From the NCBI GenBank assembly GCA_900466575.1, contig UBMP01000016.1, positions 372,001 to 436,000 of the forward strand: 64,000 bases of DNA, written 5' to 3'. A program made the position numbers and the translations under genes. The number at the start of each line of letters is the position of its first letter. Within the stretch, counting starts at the first letter, position 1. Shown piece after piece: positions 18,279 through 39,431 of this stretch. The DNA is from Hyphomicrobiales bacterium. GTDB lineage: Bacteria; Pseudomonadota; Alphaproteobacteria; Rhizobiales; Rhizobiaceae. The notes under the pieces are model-generated. The model was not told the DNA's origin and did not search any database. It saw only the letters and a list, made by a program, of their open reading frames with translations.

Positions 18279-19634
18279 TTAACCTGCCTTCTGCCGCTCG
18301 GCGAAAAGCTGGGTGATGGAATAGTCCGAAAAGACCCGGTTGCGGCCGGAATTCTTCGCCATGTAGAGATACTGGTCGGCGGCATGTAGATAGTTGTCGA
18401 ACGTCTCTTCCGCGGAGATGACAGCAACCCCGATGGATACGCGCACGGAGAGTTCTTCGTCCTCGAAGAGGATGTTCGTGCGCGCAATTTCCTCGCGCAA
18501 CAGATCGCAGTATTCCGTCGCCTCGCGCACATCCATGTTTCGCAGCAGGATCGCAAATTCCTCGCCGCCCAGACGCGCGATAAGATGGGTCTCCCCGTCG
18601 ATCATCTGCCGGAGCTTTCGCGCGACCGTCTTCAGCACGAGGTCGCCGGTCTCGTGGCCATAGGTGTCGTTGAACTTCTTGAAATGATCGATGTCGAGCA
18701 CGACTGCACAGCAGGGTTCCTTCCGTGCCAGGCAGTGCTGGACGAGCACCGGCCCGCGCTCGAAGAAATACCGGCGGTTATATGTGTCGGTGAGGAAGTC
18801 GCGTGAGGCAATGGCCTGTAGTTTCTTGAACTGGGCCAGCGTGTCGACGCTCTGCGCGACACGGCACTGGAACTCCTCCTGGATGAACGGCCGATAGAGG
18901 AAATCGCTCGCACCCGCCTTCAAGAAAGCGGCACAGGTCAAGGGGTTCTCGCGGGTTGAAAACCCGATGATGCGCATGTCTTCCGCTGAGAAGTTGCGCC
19001 GGATCTGCTTGGTCAGTTCAATGCCGCCGGTGCCGGACAGGGCTTCGTTGACCAGGACCAGCTCGATGTCGCGATACTTGGCGAGCTTCTCCATTGCGTC
19101 CTGCGCGGTTCCGGCGTGCACGACGAGGAACTGCTGCGCCTGCAACATCTGCACCGCCTCGCTCTCCTCGGGCCCCACCCCGTCTGCGACAAGAACGCGG
19201 ACGTTGCGGTTCTGGAGCACGCGGCGTACGGAGTTCACGATGGAATCGATCGCGCGATCGTTGTCCTTGATGACGTAGTCGAGCACATTCTTCTTCAGAA
19301 TGCTTTCGCGCATGTGGAAATCGAACGTTCCGGTAAAGACGATGGTGGGAAGATCGGCCTCGAGGGAGTAGTCCAGAACCTCCCCCTTGGGAGAATCGGC
19401 CAGATTGAGGTCGATCACGCCGAGCATGAACCGGCCGCGCCCTTCGGAAAGCGCCTGCTGCATATCCCTGAGAGTATGGCAGGTGACGACGTCTACAGCG
19501 AGTTCTGTCTCGAAACGATGCGCCAGCACGGTCGTGAACGTCCGCGTGTCCTCAACGACGAGAACGCAGGGCCTGCTCCCGGTAAGAGCCCCGCCGCGGG
19601 TCCTGATCTGCGCCGTCCTCAGATTGCCGTGCAA
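18279..19634 (-). CDS. Double-receiver GGDEF response regulator (PleD-like layout)
   Basis: About 451 residues: two receiver domains then GGDEF. Receiver 1 keeps the acidic pair (VVED), phospho-acceptor Asp (GVIDLNLAD) and Lys (DYVIKD). Receiver 2 has Asn at the acceptor position (LVLVNEALSG) and lacks the acidic pair, so it is probably structural. The GGDEF domain is intact (DIDHFKKFNDTYGH, LGGEEF) without an RxxD inhibition site. The start is uncertain: a TTG at 19634 has AGAGGA six bases upstream; a GTG at 19658 is also possible. It is paralogous to the next gene, with which it probably acts. Confidence 0.9.
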   Translation of the reverse strand: MHGNLRTAQIRTRGGALTGSRPCVLVVEDTRTFTTVLAHRFETELAVDVVTCHTLRDMQQALSEGRGRFMLGVIDLNLADSPKGEVLDYSLEADLPTIVFTGTFDFHMRESILKKNVLDYVIKDNDRAIDSIVNSVRRVLQNRNVRVLVADGVGPEESEAVQMLQAQQFLVVHAGTAQDAMEKLAKYRDIELVLVNEALSGTGGIELTKQIRRNFSAEDMRIIGFSTRENPLTCAAFLKAGASDFLYRPFIQEEFQCRVAQSVDTLAQFKKLQAIASRDFLTDTYNRRYFFERGPVLVQHCLARKEPCCAVVLDIDHFKKFNDTYGHETGDLVLKTVARKLRQMIDGETHLIARLGGEEFAILLRNMDVREATEYCDLLREEIARTNILFEDEELSVRVSIGVAVISAEETFDNYLHAADQYLYMAKNSGRNRVFSDYSITQLFAERQKAG

Positions 19635-21046: not shown

Positions 21047-23608
21047 ATGGCAGAGTTTCCGACCAAGGCAAAAGTGGTCATCATCGGGCTGGGCGGCATT
21101 GTCGGCGCCTCCATCGCCCATCACCTGATCGAGCGCGGCTGGGACGACATCGTCGGCATCGACAAGTCGGGCATCCCGACGGATATCGGCTCGACGGCGC
21201 ACGCCTCCGACTTCTGCTACACGACCAGCCACGACTATCTCTCGGTCTGGACGACGCAGTATTCCATCGACTTCTATGAAAAGATGGGCCACTACGCCCG
21301 TATCGGCGGCCTCGAAGTTGCCCGCACAGGCGACGACGCCTGGATGGAAGAGATCAAGCGCAAGCTCTCTTCAGCCCGCGCTTTCGGCACCCGCGCCCAT
21401 TACGTTTCGCCCGCCGAGATCAAGGAAAAGTTCCCGCTGATCGAGGAAGACCAGGTCATGGGCGGTCTCTTCGACCCGGATGCCGGCCTCGTCATTCCGC
21501 GCTCGCAGACCGTCGCCGGCAAGCTGGTGGATGCCGCCGAAAAGACCGGCAAGCTCCAGATGTTCGGCAACACGCCGGCCAAGTCGCTCATCGTCGAGAA
21601 CGGCCGCATCAAGGGCGTCGTCACCCACCGCGGCACGATCATGGCCGATCACGTCATCGTCTGCGCCGGCCTCTGGGGCCGCCTGATCGCCGAAATGGTC
21701 GGCGAAGACCTGCCCGTCATGCCGGTCGACCACCCGCTGACCTTCTTCGGTCCCTATAACGAGTTCGAAGGCACCGGCAAGGAAATCGGCTTCCCGCTGC
21801 TGCGCGACCAGGGCAACTCTGCCTATATGCGCGACACCGGCGATCCGAAGACGACCGAAGGCGGCCAGATCGAGTGGGGCTATTACGAGACCAAGGAACC
21901 GCGCATGTGCCATCCGCGCGATCTGCTCGAAAAGCATGAGGCCCGCCTCTCCCCCTCGCAGCGCGACCTCGACATGGAGCAGATCCTCGAGCCGCTCGAA
22001 AAGGCGATCGAGCTGACGCCGATCCTCGGCGAGCTTGGCTACAACGAAAGCCACTCCTTCAACGGCCTGCTGCAGGTCTCCGCCGCCGGCGGCCCGTCCT
22101 GCGGCGAGAGCCAGAAGGTGCGCGGCCTGTGGTATTGCGTCGCCATCTGGGTCAAGGACGGCCCCGGCTATGGCAAGCTCATTGCCGACTGGATGACGGA
22201 CGGCCGTACCGAAATCGACCACAACTCGATCGACTACGCCCGCTTCTATCCGCATCAGCTGACCGAAGAGTTCATCGCTGGCCGCTGCTATGAAGCCGCC
22301 CAGAAGATCTACTTCCCCGCCGTCCACCCGCGCGAACCCTATGCCAGCGGCCGCGGCGCCAAGCGCTCGCCCTTCTATGAGCGCGAAGTCGAGCTCGGCG
22401 GCTACTTCATGGAACTCGGCGGCTGGGAGCGTGCGCATGGCTACAAGGCCAATGAGCACCTGCTGGAGAAGTACGGCGACAAGGTTCCGGTTCGTGAAAA
22501 CGAATGGGACAGCCGCCACTTTTGGCGCGTCTCGAATGCCGAACATCTCGCGATGAGCGAGGATTGCGGCATCGTCAACCTGTCGCATTTCCACATGGTC
22601 GATATCGAAGGTCCCGACCATGTCGAGCTGATGGAATGGCTGTCTGCCGCCAAGATCGGCGGCGACGGCAATATCGGCAAGGGCATCTACACCCACTTCC
22701 TCGATGACGAAGGCATGGTGCGCGCCGACTTCACGATCTTCCGCATGGCCGACCGCATCCGCCTCGTCAACGGTGCCGATGCAGGCCCGCGCGACCTCCA
22801 CTACATGAAGCGCGTGGCGGAAGATCGCGGCCTCGACGTGAAGATCACCGACGTCTCGGAGAAGTTCGTCACCATCGGCATCTGGGGCCCCAACGCCCGC
22901 GACACGCTGAAGAAGGTTGTTGCCGACCCGGCGGGCCTCGACCCGGAAAACTTCGCCTTCGCAGCGATCAAGCCCATCGAGATCGCCGGCAAGACCGTCA
23001 CCGCCTTCCGCATTTCCTATGTCGGCGAGCAGGGCTGGGAACTTCACATGAAATACGAGGACGGCCTCGCCGTCTGGGATGCGCTGCGCTCCACCGGCGT
23101 CATGGCCTTCGGCGTCGAGACCTATGCGAACTCGCGCCGCATGGAAAAGAGCCTGCGCCTGCAGAACGCAGACCTGCTCACGCAGTATAACCTCATCGAA
23201 GCCGACCTTGCCCGCCCGAAGGTCAAGGAAGCCGACTTCCGCGGCAAGGCCAAGCACCTGGAATACAAGGCGCGGGACAAGCAGCCGGCCATGCTCTGCA
23301 CCCTGATCATGACCGAAAACACTGACAGCAACGGCGTCAAGCGTTACCCCGTCGGCTCACTACCCGTCGTTGACCCGGCCACCGGCGAAGTCCTCGTGGA
23401 CAGCCTCGGCCGCCGCTCCTACACGACCTCGATCGCCTACGGCCCGACGGTCGGCAAGAATATCGCGCTGGCTTACCTGCCCGCCGAATATTGCGAAGTC
23501 GGCCGCAAGCTGAATGTCGAGTATTTCACCGAGACCTTCCCAGTCGAAGTCTTCGGCGTCGGCTACAAGCCCATCTACGACCCGGAAAACCTGAAGCCGC
23601 GCAGCTGA
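21047..23608 (+). CDS. FAD-dependent oxidoreductase fused to GcvT (dimethylglycine/sarcosine dehydrogenase type)
   Basis: An 853-residue enzyme. Residues 1-400 are a DAO-type FAD domain ('VVIIGLGGIVGASIAHHL' dinucleotide loop; GSTAHASD near the usual covalent-flavin histidine). They are followed by an FAO_M bridge and a folate-binding GcvT domain with its C-terminal barrel (about 450-850). Such fusions demethylate N-methyl glycine derivatives and pass the one-carbon unit to tetrahydrofolate. A GbdR-like regulator nearby supports glycine-betaine-related catabolism, but the exact substrate is uncertain. Codon bias suggests good expression. It is divergent from the receiver gene. Confidence 0.88.
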   Translation: MAEFPTKAKVVIIGLGGIVGASIAHHLIERGWDDIVGIDKSGIPTDIGSTAHASDFCYTTSHDYLSVWTTQYSIDFYEKMGHYARIGGLEVARTGDDAWMEEIKRKLSSARAFGTRAHYVSPAEIKEKFPLIEEDQVMGGLFDPDAGLVIPRSQTVAGKLVDAAEKTGKLQMFGNTPAKSLIVENGRIKGVVTHRGTIMADHVIVCAGLWGRLIAEMVGEDLPVMPVDHPLTFFGPYNEFEGTGKEIGFPLLRDQGNSAYMRDTGDPKTTEGGQIEWGYYETKEPRMCHPRDLLEKHEARLSPSQRDLDMEQILEPLEKAIELTPILGELGYNESHSFNGLLQVSAAGGPSCGESQKVRGLWYCVAIWVKDGPGYGKLIADWMTDGRTEIDHNSIDYARFYPHQLTEEFIAGRCYEAAQKIYFPAVHPREPYASGRGAKRSPFYEREVELGGYFMELGGWERAHGYKANEHLLEKYGDKVPVRENEWDSRHFWRVSNAEHLAMSEDCGIVNLSHFHMVDIEGPDHVELMEWLSAAKIGGDGNIGKGIYTHFLDDEGMVRADFTIFRMADRIRLVNGADAGPRDLHYMKRVAEDRGLDVKITDVSEKFVTIGIWGPNARDTLKKVVADPAGLDPENFAFAAIKPIEIAGKTVTAFRISYVGEQGWELHMKYEDGLAVWDALRSTGVMAFGVETYANSRRMEKSLRLQNADLLTQYNLIEADLARPKVKEADFRGKAKHLEYKARDKQPAMLCTLIMTENTDSNGVKRYPVGSLPVVDPATGEVLVDSLGRRSYTTSIAYGPTVGKNIALAYLPAEYCEVGRKLNVEYFTETFPVEVFGVGYKPIYDPENLKPRS

Positions 23609-32472: not shown

Positions 32473-32548
<76 letters not shown>

Positions 32549-35492: not shown

Positions 35493-35579
35493 TTAGATGT
35501 CTAGCGCCCCATAAAATGACAGGAACACAGAACACGCTGAAAATATTATAAGTGATGTGCCTGCTATGTAGTGCGTCAC
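35493..35579 (-). CDS. 28-residue membrane peptide gene (candidate)
   Basis: A GTG-started frame overlapping the metallophosphoesterase stop as GTGA, with GGGAGG seven bases upstream. It encodes THYIAGTSLIIFSACSVFLS and seven more residues, a single hydrophobic helix. Both the ribosome site and the overlap style match neighbouring genes, so it may be real despite its size. The 60 bp after it show nothing further. Confidence 0.4.
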   Translation of the reverse strand: MTHYIAGTSLIIFSACSVFLSFYGALDI

Positions 35580-36838
35580 GCCACCACCTCCCGCTTGCTA
35601 TTATCATTCGCAGCCGCATACTTGCCGGCAACCATTTCCGGGCGGATCGTGTCGCGCCCTACCTCACCGTATCGCTTATGATAGGTGATGCGCTTGGCGC
35701 TGCGTCCCGATAGCCAACCGCCGCCCGCCGCATAGGCGTCCGGCGCTGCTAGCGTTTCGTGGCGCTCGACATACATAAGCGCGCCCTTGCGGCCTTCGTC
35801 GCTGTGCAGGTGGCCGATATGCGCGTATGCGTATTTCGACCGTCCGTATTCCTCGCGAAAAATGCCGGCAAGCGTGGCATCAACATTGCTGACATTCCGC
35901 TTGTGGCCGTGGTGGAAAAGCAAAAGCGTCTCGCCCCACTCAAACGCATAGTAGAGCATGGGGCTGCTATCCACGCTGATGCGCGGCTCGTTCTCGTACA
36001 TGGTGGCCAGCATTTCGCGCAACCAGGCGGAAGATGCCGGATCATGGTTGCCGCTCGCCATGACGACATGAACATGCTGGTGCGACTGGAGAAGCATGTC
36101 GATCACGCGCCGGATGGTGCGGATGACGACGCGGATAACCTTTTGCAGGCGCGAATCCGCGTCCAGTACGTGCCGGTGCGCCGGCGTGACGCTTTCAAGC
36201 GCGTCGTGGTGCATCAGGTCGCCAAGCTGCGCAAGGACTGCGGTATGTGCATGCGGGGCCTGCGCAACCGCGGCACTAAACCAATCAAGCAAAAGCTGCT
36301 CGGCAATTTTGAGGTCGTAGTCTGCGCCGGTTTCTTCCCGCCACGCCATCATGCCGAAATGATTGTCCGTAACCACAAACTGGTTTAGCAGGTCGTCAAC
36401 GACATTTGCGGGCGGCGGCATGATGGTAACGCGCGGCAGGTCTTCCTTGAGTGCGTCAACCATGGCGCGGAAGGCTTCAAGTTGCTGGTCCGCGCTTGCT
36501 GTCGTCTTCTGCCAAGCCTGAATAACCCGGCCTTCCGCATCTACAAGCGCGGACACGCCTTTGACGGTATGGCCCGCCGGCACCTCGAACACCTCGCCTG
36601 CCGCTTTCGTCTGCTTAATCCAGGCATCGCCTTGCTTGCTGGCGATGGACTTGATGGCATACCCCGGCAACACCGGATCCGTGCCAAGCATCCCGCGCTC
36701 CGCGGCAATCTTCAGGCGGCTGTTGAGTGTGTTGCGCGGAAGCCCCAACGCTCTAGCGGCCGCCGTTTTTTCGCCGTGCGTGCGAAACGCATCGGCTGCT
36801 TGCGCAGCAAGCTCGTCCGTCAATGGTGGTGTCGGCAT
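35576..36838 (-). CDS. HTH-fused calcineurin-like metallophosphoesterase
   Basis: A 420-residue protein. Residues 1-50 (AADAFRTHGEKTAAARALGL, then PRNTLNSRLKIA) form a Fis/HTH_8-like helix-turn-helix. From about residue 160 there is a metallophosphoesterase: TDNHFG, GDLMHH, SGNHDP, FHHGH and HIGHLH provide the metal ligands, though the first motif (DNH) deviates from D-x-H spacing. The combination suggests DNA or nucleic-acid phosphoester cleavage in phage replication or repair. ATG 36838 overlaps the upstream stop as TGATG. Confidence 0.78.
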   Translation of the reverse strand: MPTPPLTDELAAQAADAFRTHGEKTAAARALGLPRNTLNSRLKIAAERGMLGTDPVLPGYAIKSIASKQGDAWIKQTKAAGEVFEVPAGHTVKGVSALVDAEGRVIQAWQKTTASADQQLEAFRAMVDALKEDLPRVTIMPPPANVVDDLLNQFVVTDNHFGMMAWREETGADYDLKIAEQLLLDWFSAAVAQAPHAHTAVLAQLGDLMHHDALESVTPAHRHVLDADSRLQKVIRVVIRTIRRVIDMLLQSHQHVHVVMASGNHDPASSAWLREMLATMYENEPRISVDSSPMLYYAFEWGETLLLFHHGHKRNVSNVDATLAGIFREEYGRSKYAYAHIGHLHSDEGRKGALMYVERHETLAAPDAYAAGGGWLSGRSAKRITYHKRYGEVGRDTIRPEMVAGKYAAANDNSKREVVA

Positions 36839-37056
36839 CAGGTGTCCTTCTGTTGGCGGGCGGCAAGCATGGCGTCGGCAAGTTCGTAAGATGCCTTGGC
36901 CACGCCCATATTTCGAATGCCTTCCGGCCACGTCGGAATATTGAGAAGGCCAGTAAGCGCCGCCATCGCGAATTCATCGCGGAGGGTTTTGGGTGGTGGC
37001 GCTGTTCCTGCATCGTGGACTCGCTGTCCCCACATATCAGTATCGTCCATTGCCAT
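36838..37056 (-). CDS. Phage protein of unknown function
   Basis: A 72-residue soluble protein. ATG 37056 has AGGAGGT six bases upstream, a strong site; the frame could also open at GTG 37062, but that abuts the ribosome site. The C-terminal half (GIRNMGVAKASYELADAMLA) is helical. It opens a subgroup of the left operon that continues into the metallophosphoesterase gene. Confidence 0.65.
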   Translation of the reverse strand: MAMDDTDMWGQRVHDAGTAPPPKTLRDEFAMAALTGLLNIPTWPEGIRNMGVAKASYELADAMLAARQQKDT

Positions 37057-37067
37057 CCTCACACCTC

Positions 37068-37472
37068 CTACTGCTTCACCGCATCCGGCTTCGGCGTCTC
37101 TTCGGCAAAGCCAAAACTGCCATCGCCGCGAATCTTGATTTTCACCTTGCCGCGTCCGTTGCGCGCGCCGTCCATGGCCTTTTGCAAATCGCCCGCCTTC
37201 TGCGGCGTATATGGCAGCTTGAAATAGCGCGGCTCCGGGTCGCCGTTGATAAGCACATAGATTGCCTTATCGACATCGATGCGCGCACCGATAACGGTTA
37301 GTTCGCCGCGTGGCAGGCCGTAGATTGCGGCATTGCCCAAGGCGGTAAATTGCAGCGGCAAGAGAAGCGCCACGGCAAGCACAAACATGATGGCCTGCCG
37401 CACATTGCCGTAGAGCGCGATGAGGCCGGTGGCGACGACATAGCCTAACCAGATTAGGGCGACGTGGGTCAT
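37068..37472 (-). CDS. Two-helix membrane protein of the protease/ExbBD-like module
   Basis: A 134-residue protein. Two hydrophobic helices fill the first 50 residues (VALIWLGYVVATGLIALYG and QAIMFVLAVALLLPLQF); the rest is soluble with beta-like stretches (LTVIGARIDVDKAIYVLING) and a basic segment rich in K/R (GRGKVKIKIRGDG). Its ATG overlaps the stop of the 36-residue gene (ATGA), so it is translated with the upstream proton-channel-like genes. No family is recognised. Confidence 0.7.
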   Translation of the reverse strand: MTHVALIWLGYVVATGLIALYGNVRQAIMFVLAVALLLPLQFTALGNAAIYGLPRGELTVIGARIDVDKAIYVLINGDPEPRYFKLPYTPQKAGDLQKAMDGARNGRGKVKIKIRGDGSFGFAEETPKPDAVKQ

Positions 37473-37579
37473 AGGGCGACAATCCCAGCGAAGATAAGCC
37501 AGCGCCAGCCATCATGTCCGGTCATGGCGACAAGCGCGGCGAGCAGGAAGCAAAGCGCCGATACGTCTCTGTTTTTCAC
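37469..37579 (-). CDS. 36-residue membrane protein, coupled on both sides
   Basis: GTG 37579 overlaps the stop of the ExbD-like gene (GTGA) and has GGAGGT six bases upstream. The stop overlaps the ATG of the next gene (ATGA). The product (KNRDVSALCFLLAALVAMTG, then HDGWRWLIFAGIVAL) has two short hydrophobic segments joined by a Trp-rich turn. The strong ribosome site and the exact joins at both ends make it very likely a gene. It would be missed by standard length cut-offs. Confidence 0.72.
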   Translation of the reverse strand: MKNRDVSALCFLLAALVAMTGHDGWRWLIFAGIVAL

Positions 37580-38109
37580 CCCCGCACCTCCTTGAAAACC
37601 TGATTGAAAGATCCAGGCATTTCTGCGCCCGACGACATGCGCCAGCGCGCCGCCGTCTTTTCGTCCTTGTTGCCGTTGAGAACGACAACGCCCTTCCAGA
37701 TGAGCGCCCCCGTACCCATGCGAACCTCAACCGAAACCGGCACATCAGCAGTGCAAGCAAAGCATCGAACGTTGACGGCATACTCGCCGTCCGGCGCGCC
37801 GCGCGAATAAGCGTTCTCAAAGTTCAGCGGCGTGTCGTCGTTTTGGTTGCCCAAATCGTCTCGCAACAGGCTCCACGTCTTGCCGCTCTTGTTGCTGTAG
37901 CCGACAGCCTCTCCGTCCGGCGATGAAAGCCAAAGGTCAACGTCAATGTTGCCTTCCGGCCATGCGGCGGTTACGACTATGTTTCCGGGTGGGGTTTGCT
38001 TGATCGTGTCGTCGGCTTGCGGGTTGATGCTACTAACCGTGATAATCACGATGGCGACAAGACCGAGCAGCATGTTCATTAGCAGGTCGCGCGTGAGGAT
38101 GGCGTTCAC
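37576..38109 (-). CDS. ExbD/MotB-like membrane protein with periplasmic beta domain
   Basis: A 177-residue protein starting at GTG 38109, which overlaps the upstream stop (GTGA). A short N-terminus puts Asp8 (TRDLLMNMLLGL) just inside a single hydrophobic helix, the position of ExbD Asp25 and MotB Asp32, the proton-carrying residue. The periplasmic part (GNIDVDLWLSSPDGEAVGYS; then NFENAYSRGAPDGEYAVNV) resembles DUF2135-type beta-sandwich domains, not the usual ExbD fold. It is paired with the TolQ/ExbB-like protein upstream. Confidence 0.68.
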   Translation of the reverse strand: MNAILTRDLLMNMLLGLVAIVIITVSSINPQADDTIKQTPPGNIVVTAAWPEGNIDVDLWLSSPDGEAVGYSNKSGKTWSLLRDDLGNQNDDTPLNFENAYSRGAPDGEYAVNVRCFACTADVPVSVEVRMGTGALIWKGVVVLNGNKDEKTAARWRMSSGAEMPGSFNQVFKEVRG

Positions 38110-38513
38110 TCGCCGCCCTCCACCAGCCAAGCCGTGAATGAAAGCCATAGTGCGCAAACCGCCCCGACAAGCGTAGAGCAGAACGCAACCCCCATCCCGT
38201 CAAGCAGATTGGCCGTCACCTTCCGCACGCCGTCCGCAGTACCAAGGCCGTTCACGTCAATGGTCTGGAGCGCGATGACGAAGCCGATGACGTTGCCGAT
38301 AAGGCCAAGCGTCACAAGCCACGTTTCGACGCGCTCAAGGTGCGCGCGCCGGCCGATGAAGATGCCAACCATTGCGGCGATGAAAAGCGCCGTAATGCCG
38401 TAGGACAGGCGCGAAATGTCGTGCGAATAGATAAACTGCACGTACCCAGCGATCCACGCATAGACAAGTGCGGCGGCAAAAATTGTGTTGGAGACTATAA
38501 GGCGTGCGGTCAT
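38106..38513 (-). CDS. Short TolQ/ExbB/MotA-like membrane protein
   Basis: A 135-residue protein with four hydrophobic segments. The last two align with ExbB TM2-TM3: 'LGLIGNVIGF' (70-78) and 'LLDGMGVAFCSTLVGAVCAL' (103-122). The channel threonine of TM3 is kept (Thr114), but the TM2 threonine is Asn (Asn74). The large cytoplasmic loop of ExbB is nearly absent (GRRAHLERVE only). With the ExbD-like partner it could form a small proton-driven complex. ATG 38513 overlaps the upstream stop (ATGA). Confidence 0.68.
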   Translation of the reverse strand: MTARLIVSNTIFAAALVYAWIAGYVQFIYSHDISRLSYGITALFIAAMVGIFIGRRAHLERVETWLVTLGLIGNVIGFVIALQTIDVNGLGTADGVRKVTANLLDGMGVAFCSTLVGAVCALWLSFTAWLVEGGE

Positions 38514-38677
38514 TCAACCACCTCCACTGAAACAAAGTCTGCCTCTAAGCAATGTTCATGCGAATAGTGCTCCATCGCAGCCTCATGGGCTTGGTCAACG
38601 ATGGCATTCTCTCCATCGTCCTCAAACTCAACCTCAATCGCCACACGCACCACGGCACGCATCTTTTTACCAGCCAT
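38510..38677 (-). CDS. Small acidic protein between protease and ExbB-like genes
   Basis: A 55-residue protein (AGKKMRAVVRVAIEVEFEDD, then a His/Glu-rich helix EAAMEHYSHEHCLEADF). No signal peptide is seen, so it should be cytoplasmic. ATG 38677 overlaps the protease stop as TGATG, and its own stop overlaps the next ATG. A regulatory or adaptor role within the module is possible but unproven. Confidence 0.65.
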   Translation of the reverse strand: MAGKKMRAVVRVAIEVEFEDDGENAIVDQAHEAAMEHYSHEHCLEADFVSVEVVE

Positions 38678-39327
38678 CACTTTGCCCTCCCCATCAGCTT
38701 GCAAATCTCCGCGGAAGGCACGGCATAGCCAAACCCCGTCATCGTCGGAATGTACCCATCCCCGCTTGGTAGGGGCGCAAGCATCACCATGCTATTGATC
38801 GCCGCGACCCTACCGTCATGGAACAAGGGTCCGCCTGACATGCCCATGACGGTAGTAATGCTGGTGACGTAGACCGACGCCACATTGCCGACCTTACGCG
38901 GCTCTCCCGCGATGCGACCAAACGATGAAACAAATTCTTCGTTGATGGGGTTGCCGGCCGACTCCAGTTCGGCGCCAACCGGCAGCACGGCGCAATCAAG
39001 TTGGGCCGCCGGCATGTCAAGCGTTGTCGTGAGTGCCGCCAAGTCGGCGGAGCTATTGCGCCACAGAACGCGAGCCGCGCCGATTCGGCCATCCGTGCGC
39101 TTGATGGAGACATAGTTCGAATCACCGACGACGTGCGCGGCGGTAATGATGTAACCCGAACCGATGTTGACACCGGATCCGTGGCCGCCCCCAGCCGAAA
39201 CCATGACAACGGCATCTCGCGTTGCGGGCTTGTCGCGCTTCACATAAGGGCTACCGGCATATGCGCCAACAACGGTAGCGGCAGCGATTGCCATTGCGGC
39301 AAGGACGACGGCGGGCTGTCTTCTCAT
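38677..39327 (-). CDS. Secreted trypsin-like serine protease (prophage-encoded)
   Basis: A 216-residue protease. A signal peptide (about residues 4-24, VVLAAMAIAAATVVGAYA) is followed by a trypsin-like domain with His65 (TAAHVVG), Asp95 (SSADLAAL) and Ser164 (GMSGGPLF), all catalytic residues present; there is no PDZ domain. It should act in the periplasm. The start at 39327 has AAGGAG upstream and lies 37 bp after a near-consensus promoter. It leads a chain of overlapping genes including ExbB- and ExbD-like proteins. A secreted protease is unusual as a phage accessory gene. Confidence 0.82.
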   Translation of the reverse strand: MRRQPAVVLAAMAIAAATVVGAYAGSPYVKRDKPATRDAVVMVSAGGGHGSGVNIGSGYIITAAHVVGDSNYVSIKRTDGRIGAARVLWRNSSADLAALTTTLDMPAAQLDCAVLPVGAELESAGNPINEEFVSSFGRIAGEPRKVGNVASVYVTSITTVMGMSGGPLFHDGRVAAINSMVMLAPLPSGDGYIPTMTGFGYAVPSAEICKLMGRAK

Positions 39328-39363
39328 ATGGCAATCTCCTTCTGTGGTGGTGTGGTACTGTCG

Positions 39364-39392
39364 CTTATAGTACACTTAAACAAATTTGTCAA
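39364..39392 (-). promoter_or_regulatory. Near-consensus sigma-70 promoter of the protease operon
   Basis: On the minus strand: TTGACA (39392-39387), exactly 17 bp, then TATAAG (39369-39364). A 10-bp palindrome, ACAAATTTGT (39380-39389), overlaps the -35 box and could be an operator. The start of transcription is expected near 39357, giving a leader of about 30 bases. A strong host-type promoter inside a late region is typical of genes expressed in the lysogen. Confidence 0.8.
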
Positions 39393-39400
39393 GATGGTAA

Positions 39401-39431
39401 AAACGAAAAAGCCCCGCACGAGGCGGGGCTT
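39401..39431 (-). terminator. Intrinsic terminator after the tail spike gene
   Basis: A perfect 9-bp stem (AAGCCCCGC / GCGGGGCTT) with a 5-base loop; on the minus strand it is followed by TTTTTCGTTTTT. It ends late transcription just before the protease promoter, isolating the accessory operon. Confidence 0.9.

Follow-up and report, generated by a model that had tools for sequence, protein, structure and literature searches.

A three-gene ExbB-type module shared by rhizobial phages and proteobacterial chromosomes

Introduction

Few types of ion-driven motor related to ExbB and MotA have been named, and the closest to the locus described here are the Exb, Tol, and Mot pairs and the ZorA-ZorB pair of Zorya. 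A large cytoplasmic domain between membrane helices defines the MotA/TolQ/ExbB family. Here, we analyzed a 64,000-nucleotide (nt) stretch of a Rhizobiaceae genome (contig UBMP01000016.1, positions 372,001 to 436,000; hereafter the window, in whose numbering its coordinates are given), which carries a compact run of six minus-strand genes in a prophage context. A sequence-only reading had interpreted this run as a prophage module encoding a secreted protease and a miniature ExbB/ExbD-like membrane complex of fixed stoichiometry. Our survey narrows the conserved unit to three of the six genes, designated B, D, and T, and locates them on bacterial chromosomes as well as in phages. We favor, at a probability of roughly 60%, the view that B-D-T is an undescribed, periplasm-facing motor module of the ExbB type that was miniaturized in phages. 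The six predicted open reading frames (ORFs) were all recovered, from 39327 down to 37068:

38677-39327, minus strand: secreted trypsin-like serine protease; accessory, in a subset of phages
38510-38677, minus strand: acidic protein of 55 amino acids (aa); not conserved
38106-38513, minus strand: B (P0003), 135 aa, ExbB/TolQ/MotA-like subunit
37576-38109, minus strand: D (P0004), 177 aa, GTG start, ExbD/MotB-like topology
37469-37579, minus strand: 36-aa protein with one transmembrane (TM) segment, GTG start; not conserved
37068-37472, minus strand: T (P0006), 134 aa, two TM helices plus a small domain

Results

B, D, and T form the conserved unit

We surveyed 183 loci collected through D, near-duplicates included: the window, 11 of the 27 GenBank phage records with D, 56 IMG/VR loci, 35 of the 47 matches from a scan of the host order, and 80 named-genome loci, which are the best 80 of 472 relatives ranked by likeness to a Limnohabitans protein. 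Phages 16-3 (L002, L025) and P10VF (L012, L067) and one contig (L001, L031) are each represented twice; L099 and L100 are labeled prophages by gene layout alone, and the viral label of IMG/VR contigs is IMG/VR's own. In six-frame searches, B adjoined D in 182 of the 183 loci, the sole miss (L129) lying at a contig end, and T followed in 178, with three misses at contig ends (L044, L048, and L244) and two others (L128 and L129). Genes 3, 4, and 6 of the run are thus the unit that travels together. It is carried by temperate phages of the 16-3 type, by large phages of rhizobia, and by viral contigs, and it also forms stand-alone operons on the chromosomes of proteobacteria. Most of the chromosomal copies show three same-strand genes, often with opposite-strand genes on both sides. 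A prophage-only module is ruled out by these chromosomal copies, and the label given by the earlier reading is too narrow.

The window D retrieved 12 of 50,697 phage records by tblastn and two distant D relatives retrieved 27 each, all of them Rhizobium or Sinorhizobium phages, and IMG/VR scans returned 1, 53, and 2 loci. D matches were found in 44 of 397 genomes of the host order and in 27 of 398 genomes of the phylum (16 strong and 11 short, several of the short ones lying within large DUF2135-type proteins). The best 80 of the 472 relatives from the named-species scan belong to Burkholderiales, Gammaproteobacteria, Legionellales, and Alphaproteobacteria.

The remaining three genes behave differently. 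The protease gene lies within 4 kb of the trio in the window, 22 of 56 IMG/VR loci, 7 of 11 GenBank phages, and 2 of 35 and 1 of 80 genome loci. For the 55-aa gene, a single partial relative turned up, in L021, where it occupies a different place, downstream of D. No relative of the 36-aa gene, whose product has a single predicted TM segment, occurs in the viral loci, and neither gene has a positional counterpart in the surveyed loci. Neighbors varying independently of one another, the outcome that the sequence-only reading had itself named as fatal, were found for these three genes and not for B, D, and T. The six-gene complex was therefore rejected. It had been argued from the coupling of successive genes, and the overlaps are indeed present, at 1, 4, 4, 4, and 4 nt, in a notable run of five consecutive junctions. 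Overlaps of 1 to 4 nt occur, however, in 13 of 43 neighboring minus-strand pairs (window 24-64 kb, simple gene calls), so that coupling alone argues weakly for one complex.

The protease itself is trypsin-like by profile (Trypsin_2, PF13365; E, 2e-17) and by its catalytic triad, His65/Asp95/Ser164, as had been proposed. His and Ser are kept in 33 of 33 family members and Asp in 26, the other 7 having Glu instead. In phages X2_25 and TM3_3_14B, homing endonuclease genes break up the trio; such genes lie between B and D in L008 and between D and T in L003, and in L004 an ORF similar to that of L008, annotated as hypothetical, lies between B and D.

B is a reduced MotA/TolQ/ExbB-type subunit

P0003 scored 24.7 bits against the Pfam family MotA_ExbB (PF01618; cut-off, 22.9; E, 2e-5), which 8 of 8 aligned B relatives also matched (E up to 1); chromosomal B proteins scored 34 to 35 bits. 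Four TM segments are predicted in P0003, around a short loop, and the named families nearest to its TM core are ZorA and MotA. The ExbB-like assignment from the letters alone is thus upheld. Core residues are widely kept: Asp32 of TM1 and Gly70 of TM2 in 175 of 183 rows each, and Thr114, the polar residue that PF01618 proteins have in the last pore helix and that we take to correspond to T181 of ExbB, in 176. Thr (93 of the 183 rows), Lys (61), and Asn (25) occupy the TM2 position of Asn74, and every Lys row comes from the named-genome set (L170-L249).

In P0003, 37 residues lie between Asp32 and Gly70. This spacing ranges from 37 to 44 in GenBank phages (n = 11; median, 43) and from 37 to 71 in IMG/VR loci (n = 56; median, 46.5), compared with medians of 113 in genome regions (n = 34; range, 38 to 128) and 93 in named genomes (n = 80; the minimum of 0 reflects an alignment failure). 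The genome regions with short spacing are L128 (38), L100 (62), L101 (63), L127 (65), and L099 (71). Viral B proteins, with 37 to 71 residues between these anchors, do not have the large cytoplasmic domain between helices; the short spacing marks phage B as a reduced variant and bears out the claim of an unusually small ExbB-type subunit.

The best match of B in PADLOC is ZorA1 (E, 4.5e-9; residues 56-126), which raises the question of an anti-phage defense of the Zorya type. PADLOC gave no match for D or T, the ZorB profile included, which hit neither P0004 nor chromosomal D at E up to 1; B does not have the long ZorA tail, and the gene layouts made show no Zorya effector gene beside the trio. 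Support for a Zorya identity ends at the TM core of B, and we consider such a function very improbable.

D combines an ExbD-type anchor with a TerD-like sandwich, and T has a small domain of its own

The AlphaFold2 model of D (predicted local distance difference test [pLDDT], 90.7) consists of a helix spanning residues 3-28 and including Asp8, a linker, and an eight-stranded beta-sandwich at 44-159. D thus shares with ExbD and TolR a single N-terminal TM helix containing Asp. All of the first 9 aligned relatives keep Asp8, and the helix Asp is present in 162 of 181 readable loci. An unforced HHalign comparison sets it on the ExbD/TolR Asp with a low probability of 10% (E, 0.003), against 0.6% for the reversed control. 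Bradyrhizobium-type D proteins without the helix Asp (FDPFSVVLFKAL pattern) have an Asp four residues earlier instead.

Among 993 re-aligned chains, the best structural match of D is TerD (3ibz; Z, 11.0; 3.1 Å over 129 residues), followed by 9a6r_B (Z, 8.9; named SCP2, itself a TerD-like protein), and then by chains with Z of at most 6.4. In sequence, HHalign relates D to DUF2135 (PF09906) at 98.6%, using a two-row alignment with one row below the Pfam cut-off; direct searches of P0004 gave no match to DUF2135, TerD, or any other Pfam family.

This fold suggests an alternative in which the trio is not a motor but a regulated pore or sensor, the D sandwich binding a metal such as calcium and B-D opening or signaling in response. 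Besides the TerD fold, the set W50, D56, D58, D84, D85, and E98, rich in Asp/Glu, speaks for it, being kept in 43 of 43 aligned D relatives. Quinoprotein dehydrogenases, whose relevance is given below, use calcium or lanthanides. TerD binds calcium, according to the portion of PMC8123226 that cites Pan et al. 2011. D has no tie to TerD at the sequence level, however (HHalign, 0.1%, with four of the twelve rows of the TerD alignment removed), and we judge a sensor unlikely.

In T, two TM helices precede a small mixed alpha/beta domain (model residues 56-124; pLDDT, 76; predicted template-modeling score, 0.55), for which Foldseek returned nothing at E up to 0.001. The sole invariant column among 36 relatives is a Lys close to the C terminus. 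Neither Pfam nor NCBIfam recognizes T as TonB or TolA.

The trio moved between chromosomes and phages

A quick tree of D was built from 60 virus or prophage rows and 54 host rows, taking every third named host row and dropping L044 and L048. The virus label requires four changes, at least two of them forced by well-supported branches, and the trio has therefore passed between chromosome and phage repeatedly, in one direction or the other. Forty-eight host rows form one group (Shimodaira-Hasegawa-like approximate likelihood-ratio test, 96), next to which come the large rhizobium phages together with other viral contigs, and 16-3-like phages and prophages are part of another group, which includes six host rows; several branches are long, which leaves the details unsure. 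In our reading, the trio is an old chromosomal module of proteobacteria, of which phages have at least two deep lineages.

Chromosomal neighbors were counted in the 68 of 80 named-genome loci in which D was called (the gene caller missed 12). Around these loci, which are close relatives of the Limnohabitans query and were counted without a random-locus control, at least one gene family linked to pyrroloquinoline quinone (PQQ) and alcohol dehydrogenase occurs within six genes in 48 of 68, and a lipoprotein-type family neighbors the trio in 57, directly after T in 53; 36 of 60 members of the latter have a lipobox-like motif. Gammaproteobacterial loci have YkuD (8 of 68), DUF302 (9), or vWA-FHA (5) genes nearby, and alphaproteobacterial loci have other neighbors. 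The linkage to PQQ dehydrogenases is a lead to the cellular role of the chromosomal trio.

The same associations could mean that the phage trio is an auxiliary device for envelope upkeep, a spare energizer that keeps ion or nutrient uptake or the outer membrane working in infected cells. That the same trio occurs on chromosomes next to PQQ-linked and lipoprotein genes, and that phages with and without integrases both retain it, would fit this idea. Phage versions, however, come without the cytoplasmic part and the lipoprotein, and PQQ genes were found in none of the phage regions read, by annotation or family searches. Moreover, only 11 of 394 genomes of the host family have a D match (8 strong), so rhizobia seem not to need the trio. 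We regard upkeep as rather unlikely.

The module has its own promoter and an operator shared with phage 16-3

Two elements lie between the module and the preceding spike-like gene:

39364-39392, minus strand: promoter/operator (TTGACA, 17 nt, TATAAG), with palindrome ACAAATTTGT across the -35 box
39409-39431, minus strand: terminator-like hairpin

The promoter sits 65 nt upstream of the protease start. It is absent from the output of an automatic promoter scan, since its -10 box ends in a base other than T. Promoter-like sites are no commoner in the region than in shuffled sequence, and the argument for this promoter therefore rests on conservation. The hairpin is weak on its own (5 terminator-like sites in the region versus 4.2 expected by shuffling), and the ACAA-N2-TTGT pattern by itself is not unusual, with two occurrences in the window and as many in 12 of 100 shuffles.

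Conservation is seen in the 13-mer TTGACAAATTTGT, which is exact in 21 of the 32 loci with a called protease gene, 65 to 172 nt upstream of it. The other 11 protease loci include L003, which has a copy 1.8 kb upstream, L014, the two 68-kb-type phages, L030, L041, L042, and L100. TTGACA stands upstream of the module protease in the last four; at least in L041, L042, and L100, the palindrome that follows is a different one (AGGCG...CGCCT), which hints at control by another phage repressor. The genome under study (5.14 Mb) has three TTGACAAATTTGT copies, all on one strand of the window's contig (C38): one at the module and others 39 and 48 kb away, which are likely in the same prophage. Phage 16-3, whose copy of the module is p036-p042, has seven exact copies against 0.001 expected under a first-order model, every one followed within about 220 nt by an annotated gene on the same strand, p070 being one of these genes:

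Record L382 of phage 16-3: TTGACAAATTTGT at 21503
Record L383 of phage 16-3: TTGACAAATTTGT at 18698, 18849, 27098, 27656, 3775, and 7667

The annotated operators of the 16-3 C repressor read ACAA-N4-TTGT or ACAA-N6-TTGT/TTGA. The spacing of the module operator, ACAA-N2-TTGT, differs from these, and a C-repressor site was set aside, a regulator other than C being more probable. p070, with its own upstream copy and a sub-threshold HTH_3 match, is a candidate second repressor. The modules of phages 16-3 and AP-16-3 fall in the region named silent in a figure legend of PMC10460002.

The prophage genes on the contig that encode portal, head, tape-measure, tail-fiber, and endolysin proteins share the strand of the module. 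The endolysin and Rz-like genes come first, then the spike-like gene and the module, an order that would suit a role in lysis in which the trio passes protons or strains the envelope late and, with the protease, times or helps endolysin and spanin. A similar order occurs in L001, where a 116-aa ORF separates the module from the endolysin-like and Rz-like ORFs preceding it. The module of 16-3, of AP-16-3, and of the large phages, however, is remote from lysis genes and adjoins metabolic or replication genes; the hairpin and own promoter set it apart from the late genes in the window, and chromosomal copies occur without phage lysis genes. Lysis control is thus distinctly unlikely.

Other features near the module are a tRNA-Lys gene on the prophage side (32473-32548, plus strand) and, following T, a gene assigned to the PHROG "DNA repair exonuclease" (35576-36931). 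A metallophosphoesterase gene follows the trio in the Bradyrhizobium-type locus L109. Both phages and Bradyrhizobium-type loci have a gene of the metallophosphoesterase type close to the trio, a recurrence that we regard as possibly coincidental.

Discussion

We propose that B, D, and T make up an inner-membrane machine of three components that follows the ExbB/ExbD (MotA/MotB) design. B would form a ring in the membrane, D would contribute the pore helix with its ion-carrying Asp together with the periplasmic beta-sandwich, and T would be a third inner-membrane partner with its domain in the periplasm. By analogy with known pairs, proton flow through the B-D pore may move D, and this motion would do its work either in the periplasm or at the outer membrane. 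Since phage B lost much of the cytoplasmic domain, this output would have to be periplasmic.

Several observations weigh against the proposal. The helix Asp of D is missing in 14 Bradyrhizobium-type chromosomal loci (L106-L113, L118-L120, L124, L125, and L131) and in 5 viral contigs, and proton flow may therefore not be general. Neither P0004 nor its 9 relatives match Pfam ExbD (PF02472), a family found at one place in the own genome, on contig C13 and not at D, and D was rejected as a member of this Pfam family. The earlier description of D as ExbD/MotB-like holds for its helix topology and conserved Asp; the best fold match of the sandwich model is TerD. The TerD likeness is one of fold only, and Foldseek's own list for D was empty at E up to 0.001. 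As fold relatives of T, small barrel-like domains reached Z of up to 6.7, within noise, and were rejected. Lastly, the trio of large rhizobium phages adjoins replication genes without an adjacent protease, which gives no pointer to superinfection exclusion in particular.

Among the candidate benefits for phages, we lean to exclusion, at rather low confidence: in an infected or lysogenic cell, the module would change the envelope to the disadvantage of competitors. In 16-3-like phages, the module belongs to a phage regulon, with its own promoter and the shared operator, and gained the secreted protease. Combined with the motor proposal, this yields a fuller picture, which we put forward only tentatively: phages would have acquired, on more than one occasion, an undescribed class of ion-driven envelope machine that is spread over proteobacterial chromosomes and tied in many Burkholderiales to PQQ-dependent alcohol oxidation and a lipoprotein; B would have been stripped to near its membrane core in these phages, and the regulated, protease-equipped prophage version would reshape the host envelope against rival phages.

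Under this fuller picture, phage B would rank with the smallest MotA/ExbB-type subunits known. A widespread, nameless three-gene type with a different periplasmic domain would lengthen the short list of such motors, and its natural minimal version would give structural biologists a small model. With phage 16-3 available as a classical genetic system, the module is directly testable, and the PQQ-dehydrogenase linkage opens a second test in chromosomal operons. Among the open-access papers listed by our literature searches, we recognized none on a B-D-T module. As the same trio, in a larger form, occurs on many chromosomes, it looks like an overlooked cell-envelope device captured by phages.

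Profile searches agree with the sequence-only reading that the partners differ from those of Tol, Exb, Mot, and Zorya. The trio resembles ExbB-ExbD and TolQ-TolR in the PF01618 membership of B, the placement of the D helix Asp at the ExbD/TolR position, the periplasmic domain of D, and the gene order B-D. It differs from them in that phage B is missing much of its cytoplasmic domain and begins with an additional helix, the periplasmic domain of D is DUF2135/TerD-like and fails the PF02472 profile, and T is recognized as neither TonB nor TolA. Zorya shares with it the TM core of B, to which ZorA is the nearest of the named families, but not the long ZorA tail, and no further Zorya gene was seen. 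Among the MotA-MotB "generic ion transporters" of PMC12505986, the trio fits the non-flagellar A/B pairs with diverse appendages, although the available portion of that paper names no phage-borne member, B-D-T trio, or B subunit of the DUF2135/TerD-like kind. The motor-coupled vWA force transducers, as covered in the accessible part of PMC12204202, offer a parallel in unnamed proteins adjoining tolQR-like genes, and 5 of the 68 loci, gammaproteobacterial ones, have a vWA-FHA gene near B-D-T; T, in contrast, is without a vWA domain. Finally, D appears related to DUF2135 in sequence (HHalign, two-row alignment) and resembles TerD in the fold of its model, and it differs from both in that its domain is attached to a membrane anchor of the ExbD type.

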